Notes under the pieces: model-generated
Seen by the model: only the letters and a program-made list of their open reading frames with translations
The model's database searches: none
Told to the model about the DNA's origin: nothing
Shown: positions 2,797 to 13,222 of the stretch, one piece after another
Layout of the letters: the number at the start of each line of letters is the position of its first letter
How positions within the stretch are numbered: the first letter of the stretch is position 1
Virus record (IMG/VR): IMGVR_UViG_3300045928_000032
Location: 1-22,225 of that record
DNA: 22,225 nt
Strand: one strand, 5' to 3'
DNA from: a virus
Made by a program: the position numbers and the translations under genes

Positions 2797-2845
2797 CCCA
2801 TGTCAACCCAGCTAATACGCACGGAGCCGATTCGCGATAGAATGT

Positions 2846-2866
2846 TGTCCCTTCGAGGAGGGGACA
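2846..2866 (+). promoter_or_regulatory. hairpin around the ribosome binding site of the likely integrase start
   Basis: TGTCCC (2846-2851) and GGGACA (2861-2866) are perfect complements around a nine-base loop that contains GAGGAG, the ribosome binding site of ATG 2866. The A of that ATG is in the stem. Folding of the message here would partly hide the start, so integrase translation could depend on structure or on ribosomes arriving from upstream. The complementarity is seen directly and the regulatory effect is inference. Confidence 0.4.
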
Positions 2867-4089
2867 TGGGACGTCGGCGCGGACAGAGAAAGGGCTGGCT
2901 ACGCGAGCAGAGCGGGCAATGGCGGCTCACGTACAGACTCTACGACGTGCTCGGCAGACCGAAGCGCGAGGACGTGTATATCGGGCCGGCCGAAGGGCCC
3001 GGTAAACTCACGGCGAAGCAGGCCGAGCGACGGGCCTGGGACGACTACCTAAGCAAAGCAGACGACATTTCGCGTAAGCCAAAAGCGACTATTACGGTCA
3101 CAGAATTTTGGGATTCGAAGTACTGGCCACAAGCGGAGCTCAGGCTCCGCAAGAGCACGCGCGGGCAGTACTCGTCGCTGTGGGGCCACTGGCTCAAGCC
3201 GCGGATCGGGAGCACTTCAGTTGCACTCGTGACGGTTGAACACATCGAGCAGACACTCGCCGAGATCGCCAGTGCCGGAAAGTCGCCAGCAACCGTAAAG
3301 CATGCGCGCAAGGTGCTTTCGGCTCTCTTCACCCGGGCAAAGAGGCTCGGATACTTCACGGGAGACAACCCAGCCGGACTCGTAGAATTGCAGCCTGCGA
3401 CAAGCGTCAGGAAACCGTATGCGCTCTCTGTGGCGCAAGCGAGGGCGATACTGGCAGGAAAACCTAAAGGCGCCCAGAATGGCTCTCTTGCCACGCCAAA
3501 TCGATTCCTGCACATGATTCGCGCGGCGTTGCTGACCGGCATGAATGCGGCCGAACTCTGCGGGCTGCGGTGGTCTCAAGTGAACTTGACGGACGCTCCG
3601 GCGGGCGACATTCCGGCGAAGTGCATCGGTGTCCGCGAGCACTGGTACCGCGGTGAGGCCGGCGCACTAAAGACCGGCAACCGGTACCGCAACATCCCGA
3701 TTTGCGGCGCGCTCGCAAAGCTTCTCGAGGAGATCCGGGCCCGCGGCGTGTTCCTCACGGGCGCAGACCGCGTGTTCTGCTCGCGCAATGGGAAGCCGCT
3801 AACCGAGAACAATATTCGCCGACGCCATCTTGCGCCGCTTGCCGAATCGCTCGGGCTTCCATATCTCGGCTGGCACATCTTTCGCCACACGGTGGCCAGC
3901 TGGTGCGCCGAACTCGGGATGCACGAGGTTGACCGACAAGTGCTCCTCGGGCATGCGCCGGCCACGATGACACAGCGCTACACACACGCTGAGCTTGAGC
4001 GGATACGCGGCGTGCTCGATCAGTTGGCGGCGCGGATTGAACCGGCGAAGACTGGTTCGAACGTGGTGGAGATCAGGAGAATTGGTTGA
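2866..4089 (+). CDS. int: tyrosine recombinase / phage integrase
   Basis: Starting at ATG 2866 gives 407 residues. ATG 2800 is an in-frame alternative giving 429, but GAGGAGGGG immediately precedes 2866 and the extra 22 residues look unlike a domain. Numbering below is from 2800. The order is an N-terminal basic arm-binding-like part with W-L-R-E-Q-S-G-Q-W (33-41), an SAM-like core-binding domain (about 98-190), and a catalytic domain (about 205-400). Active-site candidates are K291 in A-L-K-T-G, H359 and R362 in W-H-I-F-R-H-T, H385 in L-L-G-H, and nucleophile Y394 in Q-R-Y-T-H. The motif that normally carries the first catalytic Arg reads T-G-M-N-A-A-E-L, with Asn249 where Arg is expected. 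The protein should recombine the attP site found 1.8 kb downstream with a tRNA-Arg gene of the host. It is embedded in the early operon and its stop overlaps the next start (TTGA). Confidence 0.92.
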   Translation: MGRRRGQRKGWLREQSGQWRLTYRLYDVLGRPKREDVYIGPAEGPGKLTAKQAERRAWDDYLSKADDISRKPKATITVTEFWDSKYWPQAELRLRKSTRGQYSSLWGHWLKPRIGSTSVALVTVEHIEQTLAEIASAGKSPATVKHARKVLSALFTRAKRLGYFTGDNPAGLVELQPATSVRKPYALSVAQARAILAGKPKGAQNGSLATPNRFLHMIRAALLTGMNAAELCGLRWSQVNLTDAPAGDIPAKCIGVREHWYRGEAGALKTGNRYRNIPICGALAKLLEEIRARGVFLTGADRVFCSRNGKPLTENNIRRRHLAPLAESLGLPYLGWHIFRHTVASWCAELGMHEVDRQVLLGHAPATMTQRYTHAELERIRGVLDQLAARIEPAKTGSNVVEIRRIG

Positions 4090-5054
4090 CGACGGAGCAA
4101 AAAAGGCTCGCAGCAATTGAGCGAATCCTGACCTACCTCAGCCTTTGCGATGAGCTTGAATTGCGATTTAGCGAAGACGAAGACGAAGACGAAGACGAAG
4201 AAAAAATCCGCTTTCGCATGTTACCACTGACCTACTTCAATCGCTGTGAGCCAATATCACATTGCGAAGAACTTGGGAATTTACCCAAATCGTATCAGCG
4301 CTTCATCCCGGCGGATGCGGCGCCGCGCGATGTGGACCACGACGAATGGGATGTCTCCTGGTTCACAAACAGAATCACTGGGAACGACACCAATCCGACG
4401 GCTGAACTGTGGAAGGATAAAAAGGCCATTTATGGTGTTCAGCGCATACGACGTGTCGCACTGAGCGAGATTCGCGGGAGGTTCAAACTAAAAAGCGGAA
4501 TGGTAATCGAATTAGCGGCTGCCTTAATTCATAGTGATGGAACGTACACGAGTTCTCGCTTTTACGCCGAACAATGGGGATCTAGCGGATGGTATGTAAT
4601 TGGGCAACCCGGCCCTGTTATCCCAGAGTTGCTTTTAGATCATGAGCGGCGGCAAGTAGAAATCTCACTAGGGTACGCTTACGCACGCCATTTCGACTGG
4701 CAAGTAGAAATCGGCTACACAAAAATGCCGACCATCGCCCTCACGGTCGATCCACCTGCCGCACGAACAGTTTTTAAACTCCGCGATCTCCCGCCTGGAA
4801 AGGACAGACGCGAAGCTCTTAAACATTGGGTCGGTGAACACTATAGGCATCAATCGTCAGGTGACAGCACGGAAGAGTTGATTAAGATCTGGCCGTACCT
4901 GAGGGGCGGCAATCAATTCAAGTGGCATGGCATGGAGTGCCGAATTCATCCCAGCAGACATGACCTGATCAGGGCCAAGAAATACGAAGAGTACCGGGCG
5001 ATCCAGCGGCAGCAGAACCAACAAACGGCGGCGAATAGGAGGAAGCGAAAATGA
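4086..5054 (+). CDS. unrecognised 322-residue protein with acidic repeat and basic tail
   Basis: Starts at TTG 4086, overlapping the integrase stop, and ends at TGA 5052-5054, giving 322 residues. I do not recognise a family. A run of alternating Glu and Asp at about 30-39 is encoded by a GAAGAC tandem repeat. The middle (about 130-200) looks like beta-rich folded protein (I-Y-G-V-Q-R-I-R-R-V, R-F-Y-A-E-Q-W, G-W-Y-V-I-G-Q-P-G-P). The C-terminal third contains R-R-E-A-L-K-H-W-V-G-E-H-Y-R and a strongly basic tail (R-R-K-R-K). The gene is visibly more AT-rich than the integrase before it. Its place between integrase and att region is where phages often carry accessory (moron) genes, but no function can be deduced. 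Confidence 0.75.
   Translation: MTTEQKRLAAIERILTYLSLCDELELRFSEDEDEDEDEEKIRFRMLPLTYFNRCEPISHCEELGNLPKSYQRFIPADAAPRDVDHDEWDVSWFTNRITGNDTNPTAELWKDKKAIYGVQRIRRVALSEIRGRFKLKSGMVIELAAALIHSDGTYTSSRFYAEQWGSSGWYVIGQPGPVIPELLLDHERRQVEISLGYAYARHFDWQVEIGYTKMPTIALTVDPPAARTVFKLRDLPPGKDRREALKHWVGEHYRHQSSGDSTEELIKIWPYLRGGNQFKWHGMECRIHPSRHDLIRAKKYEEYRAIQRQQNQQTAANRRKRK
4173..4202 (+). repeat. GAAGAC hexanucleotide tandem repeat inside a coding region
   Basis: GAAGAC occurs four times in perfect tandem at 4173-4196, followed by a partial copy GAAGAA. It encodes Glu-Asp repeats. Because the unit is 6 bases, gain or loss of copies keeps the reading frame and would change only the length of the acidic stretch. 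Confidence 0.9.
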
Positions 5055-5152
5055 AAGGAAAAACGTGCCAATCATGTAGGAACGTCTACCCGCCGTGGTT
5101 CTCTCGCTGCCCGGTTTGCCAAAAGGTCGGTAGTGCGCTAAAAGTTGGTTGA
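5051..5152 (+). CDS. 33-residue zinc-ribbon mini-protein
   Basis: ATG 5051 overlaps the previous TGA (ATGA) and has a perfect AGGAGG seven bases upstream (5038-5043). It reads 33 residues to TGA 5150-5152. Two cysteine pairs, C-Q-S-C and C-P-V-C, are separated by about 10 residues with a Y-P-P-W-F-S-R linker, a minimal zinc ribbon resembling half of a rubredoxin-type or ribosomal zinc ribbon. It is too short to recognise further. The very strong ribosome binding site argues that it is translated. A hairpin follows directly, so it appears to be the last gene of the early operon. Confidence 0.65.
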   Translation: MKGKTCQSCRNVYPPWFSRCPVCQKVGSALKVG

Positions 5153-5153
5153 T

Positions 5154-5180
5154 AAAAAAAAGGCCCCGGACACCCGGGGC
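5154..5180 (-). terminator. rho-independent terminator, oriented for the minus strand
   Basis: GCCCCGG (5163-5169) and CCGGGGC (5174-5180) form a 7-bp GC stem around the loop ACAC. Eight A residues precede it on the + strand (5154-5161). Read on the minus strand, this is a hairpin followed by eight U residues, the classical intrinsic terminator. On the + strand the downstream side is TCTCAAGC, without a U-tract, so termination of the early operon would be weaker. No minus-strand gene was found to its right, so it may stop antisense transcription into the early operon. Confidence 0.6.
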
Positions 5181-5197
5181 TCTCAAGCAACAGATTG

Positions 5198-5461
5198 ATG
5201 CTCATTAGTATATTCCTATCGCGGATAGCCATCATTGCCACAATTGTGATTGTAGGTGGTGTTGTTTACTGGGCTGCCACGGTCCAGTCTGATGTGAACT
5301 ATCTGAAGTCTGACATGGCATCGATCAAGGGGACACTCACTGAGATTCAGGCTCAACTAATAGAGCTGAGACTGAAGGCGATGGAGAAAGGCAAGCAGAC
5401 TAACCCAGGCAATCAAGAAGAAGCCAAGAAAATTTCTGCGGATATCAGAGCAGGAGGCTGA
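5198..5461 (+). CDS. small membrane protein with one N-terminal membrane segment and a coiled coil
   Basis: ATG 5198 is preferred; TTG 5195 is directly in front and also possible. It encodes 87 residues. An N-terminal hydrophobic segment (about 3-27, L-I-S-I-F-L-S-R-I-A-I-I-A-T-I-V-I-V-G-G-V-V-Y) is a signal anchor or membrane helix. A heptad-like amphipathic helix follows (about 33-65: V-N-Y-L-K-S-D-M, L-T-E-I-Q-A-Q-L-I-E-L-R-L-K), ending in a charged tail. The layout, one membrane helix plus periplasmic or cytoplasmic coiled coil, is seen in some phage lysis or superinfection-exclusion proteins, but it is not specific. No clear ribosome binding site precedes the start. Confidence 0.55.
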   Translation: MLISIFLSRIAIIATIVIVGGVVYWAATVQSDVNYLKSDMASIKGTLTEIQAQLIELRLKAMEKGKQTNPGNQEEAKKISADIRAGG

Positions 5462-5468
5462 TGAAGCC

Positions 5469-5705
5469 ATGCCTGAACCCCAAGCGCGAGCGTCTTCCGT
5501 TCATAGCAATATTCTGAATACGCCAGCAGCCAGCAAATTGCCGGATGCGGTGATGATCTTCAGTTGGCCGCTTTCCAAGGAGATCATGGCAGAGGTCAAG
5601 CTCACTGGAAGCGGCATTCGCTCTGTCCATTTAGAAAGACTCCGACAATACCTTGAGCTTGCTAAAGACGCCGTCGATTCTGACGATGGAGACGGGGGTA
5701 AATGA
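5469..5705 (+). CDS. small hypothetical protein (78 residues)
   Basis: Starts at ATG 5469, 11 bases after AGGAGG (5452-5457), and ends at TGA 5703-5705. The middle reads V-M-I-F-S-W-P-L-S-K-E-I-M-A-E-V-K-L-T-G, then H-L-E-R-L-R-Q-Y-L-E-L-A-K-D-A-V, like a beta hairpin followed by an amphipathic helix. I have an impression of similar small proteins in regulatory positions in Acidobacteriota mobile elements, but I cannot name the family. The ATG at 5461 is nearer the ribosome binding site but reads only 18 residues in another frame. The stop codon forms the start of the hairpin at 5703-5748. Confidence 0.5.
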   Translation: MPEPQARASSVHSNILNTPAASKLPDAVMIFSWPLSKEIMAEVKLTGSGIRSVHLERLRQYLELAKDAVDSDDGDGGK

Positions 5706-5748
5706 TCCACTGGCGGCCCGTACTCGCGAGGCCGCCACCAAGGGATCA
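5703..5748 (+). terminator. long two-step inverted repeat, possible terminator after the preceding gene
   Basis: TGATCC (5703-5708) pairs with GGATCA (5743-5748), and inside it TGGCGGCC (5711-5718) pairs with GGCCGCCA (5730-5737) around an 11-base loop. No U-tract follows on either strand, so it may be a rho-dependent or structural element, or the end of an RNA. It begins at the stop codon of the preceding gene and lies 11 bases before the first att arm repeat. Confidence 0.45.
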
Positions 5749-5758
5749 ACCAGAAATT

Positions 5759-5779
5759 AGTCAAATAGCAGTCAGAAAA
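5759..5779 (+). repeat. left att arm repeat
   Basis: AGTCAAATAGCAGTCAGAAAA, 18 of 21 bases identical to 5936-5956. It comprises two half-motifs, AGTCAAAT and GTCAGAAAA. This is a likely arm-type binding site of the integrase or of an excision factor. The identity is seen directly and the binding is inferred. Confidence 0.7.
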
Positions 5780-5880
5780 ATACAGATTCGACATCAAGGC
5801 AAACTGTCGCTCAGGATGTTAAGAGTTCAACTGTAACTTAATGTGGCTTATATCATACTGAAAAATAAGGCAGTTAAGTG

Positions 5881-5930
5881 GTACGCCCGAGAGGATTCGA
5901 ACCTCTGACCTCTTGCTCCGGAGGCAAGCA
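5881..5930 (-). pseudogene. 3' part of tRNA-Arg(CCG), att core
   Basis: Read on the minus strand this is the 3' two-thirds of a tRNA. It has an anticodon stem CTTGC/GCAAG with loop CTCCGGA (U33, anticodon CCG, so Arg), a five-base variable loop, a T arm AGAGG/CCTCT with loop TTCGAAT, the acceptor 3' strand CGGGCGT, discriminator A and an encoded CCA. The acceptor 5' strand ACGCCCG and a D arm are absent upstream (minus-strand positions 5931-6000), so it cannot make a tRNA. It matches what a phage carries to restore the host tRNA after integration. Confidence 0.8.
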
Positions 5931-5935
5931 GGCTC

Positions 5936-5956
5936 AGTCAAATGTCGGTCAGAAAA
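5936..5956 (+). repeat. right att arm repeat
   Basis: AGTCAAATGTCGGTCAGAAAA, 18 of 21 bases identical to 5759-5779 and in the same orientation. It begins six bases after the tRNA-derived core ends. Likely integrase arm site. Confidence 0.7.
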
Positions 5957-6012
5957 TGATTGAGAATATAGGCACTTAGATGCCTGTAGCAAGGTATCAG
6001 CAGTTACGTAGC

Positions 6013-6021
6013 AGTCAAAAT
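6013..6021 (+). repeat. third partial att arm motif
   Basis: AGTCAAAAT, one base longer in A than the AGTCAAAT half-motif of the two main repeats and in the same orientation. It may be an additional weak arm site. A short motif, so chance is possible. Confidence 0.4.
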
Positions 6022-6201
6022 CACCGGATTTCTGGCCGAGGCAAGCGGTCTATACCCCCACATTTGACAAGATTCCAGATTTGTTGCAGACTGACAACTG
6101 AGTGTTTGTAAGCTCTTGGGCAATACTTGTTGCCCCACCGTACCGACGGACCCTTTTGAGTCCTTTCGTCTAAACCACCAAAAACCCCGTCAAACCACGA
6201 C
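6022..6201. other. 180-base intergenic stretch, small hairpin only
   Basis: No convincing gene on either strand. GGGCAA (6118-6123) and TTGCCC (6130-6135) can form a six-base-pair hairpin with a six-base loop. TTGACA occurs at 6064-6069, but no acceptable -10 box lies 16-18 bases downstream, so I do not call a promoter. The minus-strand open frame here lacks a ribosome binding site and family resemblance. Confidence 0.4.
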
Positions 6202-6983: not shown

Positions 6984-7121
6984 ATGATCTCACCTGGGAT
7001 GATCTGTTTGCTTCTAGCGTTGGTGTGTTTTGTACTGGCGACGATCAATGCAATAATTCCGAGGATCAACGTGATGGCGCTCGGGTTCTGTTTCTGGGTG
7101 CTTTCGATACTGCTCAAATGA
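6984..7121 (+). CDS. 45-residue membrane protein with two short hydrophobic helices
   Basis: ATG 6984 to TGA 7119-7121. Two hydrophobic stretches, I-C-L-L-L-A-L-V-C-F-V-L-A (about 7-19) and V-M-A-L-G-F-C-F-W-V-L-S-I-L-L (about 30-44), are linked by a turn with N-A-I-I-P-R-I-N. TAGGTG lies about six bases before the start. Its stop overlaps the ATG of the small terminase (ATGA), so it is translationally coupled to the packaging genes. Small two-helix proteins of this look occur widely in phages and bacteria without known function. A holin-like role is possible but not shown. Confidence 0.6.
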   Translation: MISPGMICLLLALVCFVLATINAIIPRINVMALGFCFWVLSILLK

Positions 7122-7597
7122 CCGTAAGCACTCGACAATTGGCGGCGATGCTCGGGCTAAGCTTAGCCCGTGTCTACACGCTTGGCCGCCTGGGAAAAAT
7201 TCAGCCAGAGGCCCCTAATTCCTGGGACGTCGACAAAGTCGCTGCCGCGCTCGGGCGGGATCTAGACAGGTCAATCATACACACGGAGTCGCCATCTGAT
7301 GACCATGTTCCCGTATCTCCTCGCCAAGGGAGTCAAGCCTACGAGAGCTGGCGCCTGACAAGGGAGAAGGCAGCGCGCGCAGAACTGGAGCGGCAGAAGC
7401 TCGAGGGCTCGCTGCTCGATGTACGCGAAGTTAGAACTGCCTGGGCTGGAATGATTTCAATCGCTCGCTCAAGACTGTTGCTCGTCGGAGAGCAGGTCAG
7501 CGATACCGTGGCGGCCGAGGCCGATCCCATACGCTGTCGGGAAATCATCACTGGTTCGATACACGACGCCCTTTCATCGCTCTGTGAATCGCGCTAA
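7118..7597 (+). CDS. terminase small subunit, Nu1-like
   Basis: Starting at ATG 7118 (ATGA overlap with the preceding small membrane protein) gives 159 residues. The frame is open upstream to 7025, but that part is the membrane gene in another frame. The N-terminus is a helix-turn-helix (S-T-R-Q-L-A-A-M-L-G-L-S-L-A-R-V-Y-T-L, about 4-22), as in Nu1, which binds cos. It is followed by a linker and a long charged helix (R-E-K-A-A-R-A-E-L-E-R-Q-K-L-E-G-S-L-L-D-V) typical of the Nu1 and related family, then a C-terminal part that would contact the large subunit. It recognises phage DNA and recruits the large subunit for packaging. The stop overlaps the large subunit by 14 bases. Confidence 0.85.
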   Translation: MTVSTRQLAAMLGLSLARVYTLGRLGKIQPEAPNSWDVDKVAAALGRDLDRSIIHTESPSDDHVPVSPRQGSQAYESWRLTREKAARAELERQKLEGSLLDVREVRTAWAGMISIARSRLLLVGEQVSDTVAAEADPIRCREIITGSIHDALSSLCESR

Positions 7598-9518
7598 ACA
7601 ATTACTCAAGGAATGCTGCCGGCTTTGGGCGCCGCCAGTCCGAGAATCGCTCTCGCAATGGGCAGAAGCGAACTTCCGGCTCAGTTCGGAGTATTCGGCG
7701 TATGAAGGCCCGCTCAGGCTTTACCAGTTCCAGCGCGGCATCCTGGATGCTTACAGCGACATTTACACCCGCGAGCTCGTGGTGATGAGCGCAACCCAGA
7801 TGGTGAAGACGCTACTTCTGCAATGCATCATCGCCCACACGATCGCCCGGGATCCGGGCCCGATCCTACTGGCTCAACCTACCGAAACGGATGCCGAAAC
7901 GTTCTCAAAGGAACGTCTCGACCCAATGATCCGTGACATGGAATGCCTCAGAAAGCTCATCGCACCGGCGAAAAAGACGAGCAGCGCGAATACGGTCCTG
8001 CATAAAGTATTCCGCGGTGGCTCGCTATCGCTCATCGGCGCCCAAACGCCTGGCAATTTCGCGCGCCGGTCTATTCGTGTGTTCCTGGCGGATGAGCGTG
8101 ACAAATGGAAGCGGAATGTTGGCAGGGAAGGCGACGGCTATTCCCTTGGGGTGAAGCGCACGGCCACATTTCGGAGCCGGGCGAAACTGGTTCAGGTATG
8201 CTCTCCTACAATCGAGGGCGCCTCGCAGATAGCAGAAGCCTACCAGGGCAGCGATCAGCGTAAATTTTGGGTGCCATGCCCGTCCTGTGGCCATTCCCAG
8301 GTTCTTCGCTGGTCACAAGTAGTCTGGGAAGCCGCAGCTCCGCGCGAAACGGCCAGGTACAAGTGCGAAAACGAGGATTGTGGCGCACCCTGGAACGATT
8401 TCGAGCGCTGGGGCGCGTGTAGCCGCGGAGAATGGAGAGCCGATCGCCCTTTTCAGGGTATTGCTGGATTCTGGATCTCTGAACTTGCCAGTCCGTGGAA
8501 GACACTGGGCGACATGGTTGCGGATTTCCTGTCGAAGAAAGACGATCCTGCGCTTCTGCAGACCTTCGTCAACACTTCGCTTGCTGAAACATGGAAAGAA
8601 CGCGGCGATGCTCCGGATTACGAGAAGTTGATGGCGCGGAGAGAGCCGGATTACCGTCTCGGTCAGGTTCCGGCGCCTGTTCTGTTCCTCACGGCCGGCG
8701 TCGACGTCCAGAAGACCTGGCTCGAGGGTTATGTCTGGGGCTGGGGCCGCGGTAAAGAACGCTGGATTATCGACCATTGGCGGATCGAACACAACCCGTA
8801 TGATCAGGCGGCGTGGGATGCACTGACAACCAGGCTGAATTCTACCTATAGGCATTCGTCCGGAGCCGATCTCGCCATCATGCGGATGGGAGTCGATACA
8901 GGATATGCCACTCAGGAAGTTTACCGGTGGGCCAGGGAACAGGGCGGCGGCAGAGTCATAGCGACGGACGGACGGCCTTCAGGTGCGGCGTTATTGGGGC
9001 TTCCGACGCAGGTCGACGTCACAATAGCCGGACGAAAAATCAAGCATGGCTCGAAGCTCTGGCCGGTCAATGTTTCGATGGGAAAGTCGGAACTGTACGG
9101 TCTGCTCGGCAAAGAGCGACCGGCAGCCGGCGAACCGTATCCGCCAGGCTGGGTCCATTTCCCCTCGGATCTCCAGGAAGAGACCTTCAGGCAATTAACA
9201 GCCGAAGTTCTGGTTACCAGGATCGTCAAAGGCTACCGGAAAACGGAATGGGTCAAGATCCGTGAGCGCAATGAGGCTCTCGACTGCGCGATCATCAACC
9301 GTGCCTGTGCCGCGCACATCGGTATTGACAGATTCGGCGAGCGCCGATGGCATGAGTTCGAAACAGCTCTCAGGTATGCCGATATTAAAGAACTCGAGCC
9401 GGAACCGGGAATAAAACCCGCGGTTGAAATCGCTCAGCGGTCCCCTGAGATTGGCGTGGTGCGCGAACGCACCCAAAGTTGGCTGGGCGGCCGCGGCGAG
9501 AACTGGTTTTCACGATGA
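7584..9518 (+). CDS. terminase large subunit, lambda GpA family
   Basis: GTG 7584 gives 644 residues, the normal size for this family. The ATPase domain contains the Q-F-Q segment, a Walker A region M-S-A-T-Q-M-V-K-T at about 68-76, and Walker B V-F-L-A-D-E-R-D at about 166-173. A zinc motif C-P-S-C (232-235) and C-E-N-E-D-C (261-266) follows, as in GpA. The nuclease domain begins at about 367, with metal-binding candidates D374 in A-G-V-D-V-Q and D438 in M-G-V-D-T-G-Y. The Walker A loop lacks the Gly normally before Lys-Thr (M-V-K-T). It pumps DNA into the prohead and cuts concatemers, most likely at cos. No strong ribosome binding site precedes GTG, so translation is probably coupled to the small subunit. 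Confidence 0.95.
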   Translation: MNRAKQLLKECCRLWAPPVRESLSQWAEANFRLSSEYSAYEGPLRLYQFQRGILDAYSDIYTRELVVMSATQMVKTLLLQCIIAHTIARDPGPILLAQPTETDAETFSKERLDPMIRDMECLRKLIAPAKKTSSANTVLHKVFRGGSLSLIGAQTPGNFARRSIRVFLADERDKWKRNVGREGDGYSLGVKRTATFRSRAKLVQVCSPTIEGASQIAEAYQGSDQRKFWVPCPSCGHSQVLRWSQVVWEAAAPRETARYKCENEDCGAPWNDFERWGACSRGEWRADRPFQGIAGFWISELASPWKTLGDMVADFLSKKDDPALLQTFVNTSLAETWKERGDAPDYEKLMARREPDYRLGQVPAPVLFLTAGVDVQKTWLEGYVWGWGRGKERWIIDHWRIEHNPYDQAAWDALTTRLNSTYRHSSGADLAIMRMGVDTGYATQEVYRWAREQGGGRVIATDGRPSGAALLGLPTQVDVTIAGRKIKHGSKLWPVNVSMGKSELYGLLGKERPAAGEPYPPGWVHFPSDLQEETFRQLTAEVLVTRIVKGYRKTEWVKIRERNEALDCAIINRACAAHIGIDRFGERRWHEFETALRYADIKELEPEPGIKPAVEIAQRSPEIGVVRERTQSWLGGRGENWFSR

Positions 9519-9900: not shown

Positions 9901-11361
9901 TTGAATTGGCTTGATCGAGCGATCGACTGGCTGTCGCCGGCCATGGGTCTCAAGCGCGCCCGGGCCAGGCACATTCAAGAGGTTTTGCTCGGATATGAAG
10001 GCGTTCGCAGTACACGGCGCCAGGGCGGCTGGAACACGGCGCAGAACAGCGGCAACGCCGAAATGGGCGTTGCGCTCACGAAACTCCGTGATAACGCCCG
10101 TGACCTTGTTCGTAATAACGCCTACGCAAAAAAGGCGGTGCGCGAATGGTCGAAGCGCGTCGTCGGATGGGGTATCACACCACAGGCCGATACCGGCAGC
10201 GCCTCGCTTAACGAGATTATCGATCAGTACTGGGAACAGTGGGTTCCGCAGTGCATGTCTGACAGGCGGCTCGGGTTCTACGCGGCGCAAAAGCTCATTT
10301 GCCGGGCAGCTTTCGAGTCCGGAGAGTGCCTTGTCAGGATCTGGGATAGGCGAATTCAAGATCAGCTCGCCGTCCCGTTTCAAATTCAGATTCTTGAGTC
10401 TGATTATTTGGATATCAACCAAACAAAGACGCTCGAGACCGGCTACATTCTCCATGGCATCGAGTTCGACCCTATCGGCCGTATCCGCGGCTACTGGCTC
10501 TTTGGGCAGCATCCAGGGGATGTTGTCAACACGAGGCTCGGGAGAAATCTAGCTAGCAGATTCGTACCAGCCGAGGTTATTCTGCACCATGCCGAAATCG
10601 AGCGGCCGGGCGATGTCAGGGCAGTAACCCGGTTTGCGCCGGTCATGAACAAGCTGCGAGACGTCGATGAATACGCCGATGCCGAGATTGTGCGTAAGAA
10701 AATCGAGGCGTGCCTAACGGCCATGATTACGCAGCCCGAGGGCGCCGACGGTCCAACGATGGGTTCCCTGGTAACGGATGCGGACGGCAACAAGGTAGAG
10801 AAATTCCAACCCGGTATGATAATGTACGGCGCCCAGGGAGTCAGCGCGGAGTTCTTCGCTCCGTCGAGCTCCGGCGACTTCGCCTCACATAAGAAAACTG
10901 AACTACGGGAGGTCTCCACCGGCCTTGGAATTCCTTATGTGACGCTCGCGGACGACCTCAGCGATGTCAATTACTCGAGCTATCGCGGCGGCGCGGTCGC
11001 TTACCGGGATGACATCGACGAATACCGGTGGAATTGGTTTATCCCGCAGGTCCTCGACCCCATCTGGCGTAAGTTTGTCGACACTCTGTATCTGATGGGC
11101 GGCATTCCGGAGGCAAATTACGGCGTGAAGTGGAATCCTCCGCCATTCGATCTGCTCGACCGTGAATCAGAGAGCAAGGCCGATATGACCGAGTTACTCA
11201 TCGGTAAAAAGACATGGCCACAAATGTTGGGCGAGCAAGGCAGAGACCCGGAAAAACAATTCACGGAAATTGCGGCATGGAAGCCCAGGCTGGACTCTGT
11301 CGGAGTCTCATTCAATCCGAAAGGAAACAAAAATGGCGAAGCTCAGAATTCCGCGGCCTAG
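9901..11361 (+). CDS. portal protein, lambda family
   Basis: TTG 9901 is used as start with AAAGG about seven bases upstream, giving 486 residues, close to lambda gpB (533). Family features include the N-terminal A-R-D-L-V-R-N-N-A-Y-A-K-K-A-V region (about 65-80), V-G-W-G-I-T-P near 88, R-R-L-G-F-Y-A-A-Q-K near 122, E-S-G-E-C-L-V-R near 140, and L-E-S-D-Y near 165. The conserved S-S-Y-R-G-G-A-V near 360 is typical of this family. Twelve copies form the channel at one vertex through which DNA enters and leaves. The C-terminal 29 bases overlap the start of the capsid gene in another frame. Confidence 0.95.
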   Translation: MNWLDRAIDWLSPAMGLKRARARHIQEVLLGYEGVRSTRRQGGWNTAQNSGNAEMGVALTKLRDNARDLVRNNAYAKKAVREWSKRVVGWGITPQADTGSASLNEIIDQYWEQWVPQCMSDRRLGFYAAQKLICRAAFESGECLVRIWDRRIQDQLAVPFQIQILESDYLDINQTKTLETGYILHGIEFDPIGRIRGYWLFGQHPGDVVNTRLGRNLASRFVPAEVILHHAEIERPGDVRAVTRFAPVMNKLRDVDEYADAEIVRKKIEACLTAMITQPEGADGPTMGSLVTDADGNKVEKFQPGMIMYGAQGVSAEFFAPSSSGDFASHKKTELREVSTGLGIPYVTLADDLSDVNYSSYRGGAVAYRDDIDEYRWNWFIPQVLDPIWRKFVDTLYLMGGIPEANYGVKWNPPPFDLLDRESESKADMTELLIGKKTWPQMLGEQGRDPEKQFTEIAAWKPRLDSVGVSFNPKGNKNGEAQNSAA

Positions 11362-13222
11362 CATTATTGCGACCCTCGCGCCGGAATCGCTCAACGGCGA
11401 GGAACGCACAATCGACGCTACATTTTACAGTGGCGCCGAAGTACCTCGGTTTTCGTGGCTCCGCGGCGAATACATGCTCACGCTGGAGACCAAGCCAGGC
11501 GCAGTGCGGCTCGGTCAGTTGAACACCGGCTCTGCCCCAGTGCTCGAGGCACACAACGATTGGAGGACAAGTGATGTCCTTGGTGTCGTGGAAAAAGGCT
11601 GGCTCGAGAATGGTTCGGCCAAAGCGAGTCTGCGTTTCGCCAAGAACGATGAATCCGCCGATCGCGTCTGGAACAAGATCGAGCAGAAGATCCTGCGCAA
11701 CGTTTCGATGGGTGTCCGGATTCACAAGATGAAAGAGACCTCGACAGCCGAGGACAAAATCAAGTCGTACCTTGCGACAGACTGGGAGCCATTCGAAATT
11801 TCCATCGTCCCGATCGGGGCTGATCCTGGAGCCCATCTTGAACTCGCCGGCGATACCGGCGAGCAGGAAATCGAAGTCGAAGAGTTTTCGCGGGCAACTA
11901 GCCCAAAGGAGGCACACATGCCTGAACAGACGGGCGAAACTGCCCACAATTCGGATGCGGTGGCAGCGGCGCAAGCCGCGGAGCGTACCAGAGTCCTGGA
12001 AATTACCAAAAAGGGCGCACTGGCCAAGCTGGAGCCGGCTTTCGTCACTCAACACATCGAGGCTGGCACGTCGGTTGAGGAATTCATCCGGCTGGGATTC
12101 GACCGGATGGCGGCGCGCAGCGAAGCGATTCCGACACGGGAACATCACGAGATTACGCGCGATGAACGCGAAACCAGGCGCGCACTGGCCGAGTCAGCCA
12201 TTCTCAATCTGGTCCTGCCGAGCAAATTCAAAGTGGAACCGGAGAATGACTTCCGCGGCATGCGGATTTCCAGGCTGGCCGAGGAGTTGCTCACACGCTC
12301 GGGCGTCAGCGTTCGCGGCAAAAACATGGCGGAAATCGTGAATCTCACCATGCACGCGACGGCCGACTTTCCGTACATCCTCGAAAACAGCGCGCGCAAG
12401 ATGCTGCTGGCCGCCTATGAATACGCTTCTCCAACATACAGGACTTGGACCAAGCGCTCGACAACTCCGGATTTCAAAACGATGAGCCGGTTACGACTCA
12501 GTGAGACCCCGGCGTTCATCGTGGTTCCGGAAGGCGGACAGATCCAGCTCGGGCCGATGACGGAATCGCGCGAACAGTACGCGATCGCCACATACGGCCG
12601 CGGCGTATCGTTCACTCGGCAGATGCTGATCAATGACGACCTCGGAGCGTTCAACGATTTGATCTCCGCGTTCGGCATTCAGGCCTCCCGGCTGGAGAAT
12701 AAGACCGTTTACGCGATCCTGACGGCGAATGCTGCCATGGCCGATACAGTCGCGTTGTTCCATGCCACGCACAACAACCTGGGATCCGGGGCCCTTGGTA
12801 ATCCAGGGCTGGATTCGATGTTTACGGCGATGGGAACACAAAAGGGGCTCGATGGTCTGACGGTTCTTAATTTGCGACCGCAGTATCTGATTGTCCCGAT
12901 GGCGAAGGCTGCTACCGCTCAAAGCGTGATGACTCCGGTGGGACCGTCTGTCAAGATCACCGATCAGAACTGGTTCGCCGGCCGGCTGACCATCGTCGCG
13001 GATGGGGAACTTGACGCCAATTCAACCAGCGTGTGGTATGGCGCCGCAGATCCGAGTACTGCACCCGGCATCGAATACTCTCACCTCGAGGGAGCGGAAG
13101 GTCCGCAAATCATCCGCAAAGAGAACGAAGGCGCGATTCTTGGCGTGCAGCTCTATGCGTACCTCGATTTCGGAGCGAAAGCCATCGACTGGCGCCCGCT
13201 CTACAAGAGCACAGGCGTATAA
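11333..13222 (+). CDS. prohead protease / major capsid protein fusion
   Basis: ATG 11333 with AAAGGA about seven bases upstream gives 629 residues. The open frame extends back to 11270, but that overlaps the portal gene and lacks a ribosome binding site. Residues about 10-170 are an HK97-type (S78/U35) prohead protease: candidate catalytic His74 in V-L-E-A-H-N-D, Ser125 in L-R-N-V-S-M-G-V, then E-P-F-E-I-S-I-V-P near 153-161. A linker (170-260) with helical, scaffold-like character follows. The rest (about 290-629) is a Mu gpT/HK97-type capsid protein with F-I-V-V-P-E-G-G, the E-R-F-like R-G-V-S-F-T-R-Q-M-L-I-N-D-D motif and a C-terminal beta-rich part. A nested in-frame start at ATG 11918 with AAAGGAGG is described separately. 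Fusions of this kind are known in phages. Mature capsid requires cleavage of the protease part or independent translation of the capsid part. Confidence 0.9.
   Translation: MAKLRIPRPSIIATLAPESLNGEERTIDATFYSGAEVPRFSWLRGEYMLTLETKPGAVRLGQLNTGSAPVLEAHNDWRTSDVLGVVEKGWLENGSAKASLRFAKNDESADRVWNKIEQKILRNVSMGVRIHKMKETSTAEDKIKSYLATDWEPFEISIVPIGADPGAHLELAGDTGEQEIEVEEFSRATSPKEAHMPEQTGETAHNSDAVAAAQAAERTRVLEITKKGALAKLEPAFVTQHIEAGTSVEEFIRLGFDRMAARSEAIPTREHHEITRDERETRRALAESAILNLVLPSKFKVEPENDFRGMRISRLAEELLTRSGVSVRGKNMAEIVNLTMHATADFPYILENSARKMLLAAYEYASPTYRTWTKRSTTPDFKTMSRLRLSETPAFIVVPEGGQIQLGPMTESREQYAIATYGRGVSFTRQMLINDDLGAFNDLISAFGIQASRLENKTVYAILTANAAMADTVALFHATHNNLGSGALGNPGLDSMFTAMGTQKGLDGLTVLNLRPQYLIVPMAKAATAQSVMTPVGPSVKITDQNWFAGRLTIVADGELDANSTSVWYGAADPSTAPGIEYSHLEGAEGPQIIRKENEGAILGVQLYAYLDFGAKAIDWRPLYKSTGV
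11905..11920 (+). promoter_or_regulatory. internal Shine-Dalgarno and ATG for a separate capsid protein
   Basis: AAAGGAGG (11905-11912) lies five bases before ATG 11918, in frame with the fusion gene at residue 196. Translation from here would give 434 residues to the same stop, a scaffold-like segment plus the capsid domain without the protease. This is one of the best ribosome binding sites in the window, better than that of the full gene. Lambda makes its scaffold Nu3 from an internal start in the protease gene C, so the logic is known. The site is seen directly and use of it is inferred. Confidence 0.65.

Follow-up and report, generated by a model that had tools for sequence, protein, structure and literature searches.

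Does a truncated tRNA gene between the genes of a tailed phage mark the place at which the phage enters its host chromosome? Such a fragment is present in the stretch of viral DNA analyzed here (the window; 22,225 nucleotides of an IMG/VR record). With a probability of roughly 94%, we consider it to be the attP of a temperate tailed Bryobacterales phage that recombines with the host tRNA-Arg(CCG) gene at its anticodon stem-loop.

The tRNA-derived core within the phage genome

The minus strand at 5879–5929 holds the 3′ part of a tRNA-Arg(CCG) gene: the 5′ side of the anticodon stem, the loop with anticodon CCG, the T arm, the 3′ acceptor strand and an encoded CCA (TGG at 5879–5881 on the plus strand), in this order. 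A preliminary description of the window had recognized this fragment and its extent from anticodon stem to CCA, lacking D arm and 5′ acceptor strand; both the sequence itself and ARAGORN, which called no complete tRNA in the window, agree. While the identity stands, the position given there (5881–5930) is slightly shifted, and base 5930 is unlike that of all 16 host tRNA genes compared. Neither the D arm nor the 5′ acceptor strand is found beside the core. The Rfam tRNA model scored the core at 27.6 bits (cutoff 29), aligning the anticodon and T arms and leaving the 5′ acceptor strand unmatched. The anticodon loop (5917–5923, minus strand; TCCGGAG in plus-strand letters) lies between the inverted half-sites CTTGC and GCAAG and is a candidate for the overlap of strand exchange.

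At a distance of 1.8 kb from the attP, a tyrosine integrase of the lambda type is encoded (2800–4089, plus strand; 429 aa; Pfam PF00589, E = 9e-18; PHROG integrase, E = 1.5e-56). The catalytic residues R257, K291, H359, R362, H385 and Y394 are all conserved in alignments. Residues 32–91 of the N-terminus are predicted to form a three-stranded sheet (32–37, 40–48, 54–63) and a helix (72–91), a modeled fold which resembles arm-binding domains. The structure model is weak overall (pLDDT 60.6; 72–86 in the N-terminal region) and was used for this domain only. Three genes (4086–5705) lie between integrase and attP. The first encodes a 322-aa protein without family match, in a frame that overlaps the integrase stop; of the other two products, one (88 aa) weakly matches an Rz-like spanin (E = 7e-4) and the other has 78 aa. 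Among the genes of the phage no excisionase gene was recognized. On the opposite side of the attP the terminase, portal and capsid genes follow from 7025 on, beginning with the small terminase subunit (7025–7597, plus strand; PHROG 57, E = 1e-22) and the large subunit of the GpA type (7584–9518, plus strand; Pfam and PHROG matches). The gene at 11270–13222 is an apparent fusion of a prohead protease domain and the major capsid protein (PHROG 4523, E = 9e-181; Peptidase_S78 and Phage_capsid_4).

The same phage is found in two sister records of IMG/VR, of 21,987 and 49,411 bases. Over the att region these two records and the window agree without mismatch, and to the right of the core the sequence is also present in a 12.5-kb record. 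Both ends of the 49.4-kb record lie in one shared array of 12-bp repeats within one ORF, and joining the ends keeps a single reading frame open without a stop. Hence, the assembly closes in frame via the shared array and the genome is circular or circularly permuted. The array (L008 1–239 and L010 9157–9411 in the 49.4-kb sister genome, beyond the window) is part of a phage gene, for whose product it specifies an alanine-rich repeat (EAAG/EAAR/AAAW); this tandem repetition probably halted the assembly at that point.

Phage genes run for 13 kb on one side of the core and for 36 kb on the other. The preliminary description had taken the segment for a joined attP with phage genes on both sides, had proposed circularity as a check, and had named a complete tRNA or nearby host genes in a longer assembly as findings that would speak against it. 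Integrase and structural genes indeed flank the core, the 49.4-kb assembly closes into a circle, and it contains no tRNA gene and no recognized host gene. Since many genes of the tail half lack a family match, it is the circular closure together with the nameable genes that argues against host genes. Given the closure and the lack of a tRNA gene, the core is a joined site, and the identification of the segment as the joined attP is strongly supported. Likely, the DNA was sequenced from the free phage rather than from replicating DNA or a tandem prophage junction.

Repeats flanking the core

Candidate arm-type repeats surround the core on the plus strand. R1 (5759–5779), on the CCA and integrase side, and R2 (5936–5956), on the anticodon and terminase side, share 18 of 21 bases, exactly as the preliminary description had reported for a direct repeat on either side of the core. 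Shuffling the 801-bp region 300 times produced such a repeat once, and in 20-nt windows none of 200 shuffles reached the best repeat across the core. A weaker third copy, R3 (6002–6022; 15/21), was also obtained by repeat comparison, and a third copy of at least 15/21 arose in 8 of 1000 shuffles. The shorter copy previously placed at 6013–6021 thus exists, as the best-conserved part of this longer, in-register copy. All three repeats contain a pair of GTCA-like boxes 11 bp apart (5760/5771, 5937/5948 and 6003/6014, the box at 6003 reading GTTA). Two further candidates, the repeat GAGGCAAGC at 6038–6051 and an inverted repeat (5937–5948/6057–6068), were estimated to be at chance level and were set aside.

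A conserved stem-loop (5703–5749, plus strand; fold z-score −3.8) begins at the stop codon of the ORF at 5469–5705 and ends 10 bp before R1. It has no U run and is hence not a standard terminator. Of 257 genomes of the host order, six have a single, nearly identical copy; copies lie at L104 1472–1524, L105 2032–2071 and L106 1971–2010. The three genomic copies inspected begin at the stop codon of a gene with a P63C domain (PF10546).

Predicted target gene, host order and relatives

Of about 85,000 species genomes, only 16 contain an exact match to a 47-base part of the core. Twelve of these are named Acidobacteria, Bryobacterales, Bryobacteraceae or Terriglobia, and three (L013, L015, L025) belong to other phyla. 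ARAGORN identified a complete tRNA-Arg(CCG) in each of the 16. All 16 cease to match the window at 5929. In the opposite direction 14 of them match as far as the CCA at 5879, with at most three chance bases beyond; the 51 bp from 5879 to 5929 are exact in most of the 16 genes. When 20 kb of the phage were compared with 257 genomes of the same order, the core was the dominant match, and 85 of these genomes match it with at most three mismatches. The best relatives found for the large terminase, at 50% identity, belong to the predicted host order, versus about 41% among 50,697 named phages. Based on the core matches and the terminase relatives, assignment to uncultured soil Acidobacteria (Bryobacterales) is well supported as a sequence-derived, order-level prediction; the exact host species we infer. 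A close relative of the integrase was absent from the 13 genomes searched among those of the 16 core-bearing contigs. As to the earlier prediction of insertion at the 3′ end of a host tRNA-Arg(CCG) gene, the matching gene does exist in Bryobacterales; an integrated copy of the window phage was not found among the genomes searched.

Extra copies or fragments of the core are present in five genomes of the order (G054, G127, G129, G192, G206). All of them include the anticodon loop and diverge just beyond it, within or just past the anticodon stem. Complete gene and fragment are found on one contig, 4.2 kb apart in G127 and 1.9 kb apart in G206. In G206 the match ends directly behind the anticodon loop, and therefore strand exchange falls in or before the loop. 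These extra tRNA-Arg(CCG) fragments are leftovers of other elements. In G054 (L091) and G127 (L092), several 3′ fragments stand in a row beside the complete gene, and such rows suggest stacked integrations at tRNA-Arg(CCG).

A colinear integrated relative was identified in the 4.4-Mb genome G151, where terminase (38% identity), capsid (42%) and further genes occur in the order of the window phage. Next to its integrase this prophage ends in a complete tRNA-Cys(GCA); its terminase end, at a distance of 34.6 kb, holds 49 bp identical to the 3′ part of that tRNA. The window phage is predicted to be arranged in this way once integrated. The integrases of G151 and of the window are only remote relatives, so that phages with similar bodies appear to exchange their integration modules.

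Relatives of the integrase itself were also analyzed. Integrases with 34–41% identity adjoin tRNA-Arg(CCG)-type sequence in L037, L041 and L044, and others of the family adjoin tRNA-Val, tRNA-Pro or tRNA-Arg(TCT) genes. Six viral sequences (L081, L082, L083, L086, L088, L089) carry 3′ fragments of tRNA-Arg(TCT), tRNA-Pro(CGG) or tRNA-Val(TAC) near the integrase, the isotypes being assigned from the anticodon loops. The scan for relatives worked with an alignment of five integrases, whereas one of 11 sequences was too diverse; IMG/VR scans with the single integrase or large terminase sequence yielded only copies of the window phage. The window phage terminase was not found in five phages sharing the integrase, in a search that had no positive control. 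An integrase directly behind a complete tRNA-Arg(CCG) in L020 (301–1017) marks a further element at the same gene; considered as a close relative, it was rejected, being at best remote (26% over 143 residues).

In L037 the repeats straddle the core with a spacing of 174 bp, compared with 177 bp in the window. As in the window, the repeats across the core exceeded all 200 shuffles in L037, L082 and L083. In L088 and L044 they reached p ~0.1, and the pair in L044 is not the motif-bearing one; L081 and L086 showed no significant repeat across the core (200 shuffles, 20-nt windows). L041 has no across-core repeat either; being an integrated end, it would hold one arm only. Several relatives have two similar boxes 11–12 bp apart in each repeat, and the motif TTCTGNC is found on both sides of the core in the window, L037, L044 and L083, though not in all relatives. 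A weight matrix of arm sites built from the relatives missed R1–R3 in the window, and conservation of the letters is hence not claimed. Thus, of the repeat conservation in relatives that the preliminary description had called for, the positions around the core are kept and the letters diverge. The tRNA fragment in L037 (1215–1430) has arm-like repeats on both sides and lies next to host genes and transposase remnants; instead of a simple attR, it may be a place where stacked elements meet.

Tentatively, and with some doubt, the integrase family might share a common attP plan. It would consist of phased box pairs 27–69 bp off the anticodon end and 66–111 bp past the CCA, with tRNA cores (Arg-CCG, Arg-TCT, Pro, Val) and phage bodies freely exchanged and the attP in either orientation to the integrase gene.

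Proposed recombination and significance

By analogy with lambda and with tRNA-targeted phages (PMC10865867, PMC4383910), the N-terminal domain of the integrase would bind the GTCA box pairs in the arms, and the enzyme would also contact the core half-sites CTTGC and GCAAG around the loop TCCGGAG. Strand exchange would take place over a 7-bp overlap (5917–5923), an overlap which, like the exact cleavage points, we infer. After recombination the integrase end would combine the 5′ half of the host gene with the phage core and R1, giving a working tRNA, and R2 together with the host gene's own 3′ part, now displaced, would end up on the terminase side. The 51-bp core is predicted to rebuild the complete tRNA, so that insertion would spare the host gene. 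With a core of 51 bp without mismatch, a phage-encoded tRNA is not needed.

Other origins of the segment have to be weighed against an attP. The core could be the attL or attR of a prophage, or the junction of tandem prophages, in DNA derived from a lysogen. In its favor, two genomes of the order (G054, G127) do have tandem fragments of tRNA-Arg(CCG), and the fragment of L037, next to host genes, lies between arm repeats. However, the core of the window adjoins neither a D arm and 5′ half nor any recognized host gene, the long runs of phage genes on either side belong to an assembly that closes on itself, and a tandem junction would still have the sequence of an attP. We regard a lysogenic origin as improbable. 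Less probable again is that the fragment is a relic, or that it acts at the RNA level as a decoy or tRNA-derived RNA, its role in integration having been lost. A tRNA-like fragment could be transcribed; yet this one is exact over 51 bp, ends where the displaced host fragments end, and is accompanied by flanking repeats and a nearby integrase with intact catalytic residues, an arrangement which relatives show with other tRNAs. Metagenome assemblies can join at repeats, and a chimera of host tRNA DNA and phage DNA might look similar, but three records agree across the region, and on neither side of the core does the sequence run on as the remainder of the tRNA gene or as its known surroundings, which makes an assembly artifact extremely unlikely.

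The segment is an ordinary attP of a known kind, with an integrase complete in its catalytic residues, a tRNA 3′ core, a joined site and flanking repeats. Like lambda-type attP sites in the 3′ half of tRNA genes at the anticodon subsite (Williams 2002 classification; Islander, PMC4383910), it has a 3′ tRNA core between direct repeats, a neighboring tyrosine integrase with an N-terminal sheet domain, tRNA rebuilding (here predicted) and displaced host fragments. In contrast to such sites, integrase and attP are separated by three genes and 1.8 kb, and target and host (tRNA-Arg(CCG), Bryobacterales) were deduced from sequence alone. The attP of mycobacteriophages with Int-Y integrases likewise has its core over a host tRNA near the anticodon loop, flanked by pairs of arm-type sites (PMC10865867). 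In the tRNA-dependent lysogeny of Fionnbharth, only about 10 bp are shared and a phage tRNA is required (PMC10865867). The window phage differs: its 51-bp core is free of mismatches, and neither the window nor the 49.4-kb genome includes a tRNA gene. Proviruses described from Acidobacteriota and Bryobacterales (PMC11924767, PMC5900883) are temperate tailed phages of the same host group, and a text search of PMC11924767 yielded no mention of attachment sites.

The integrase and its attP are a possible tool for site-specific integration in soil Acidobacteriota that are hard to culture. The main use of this attP is host assignment. A complete phage that has been seen only in metagenomes thereby receives a likely host order, in a bacterial group from which few phages are known, and an integration site that can be tested.
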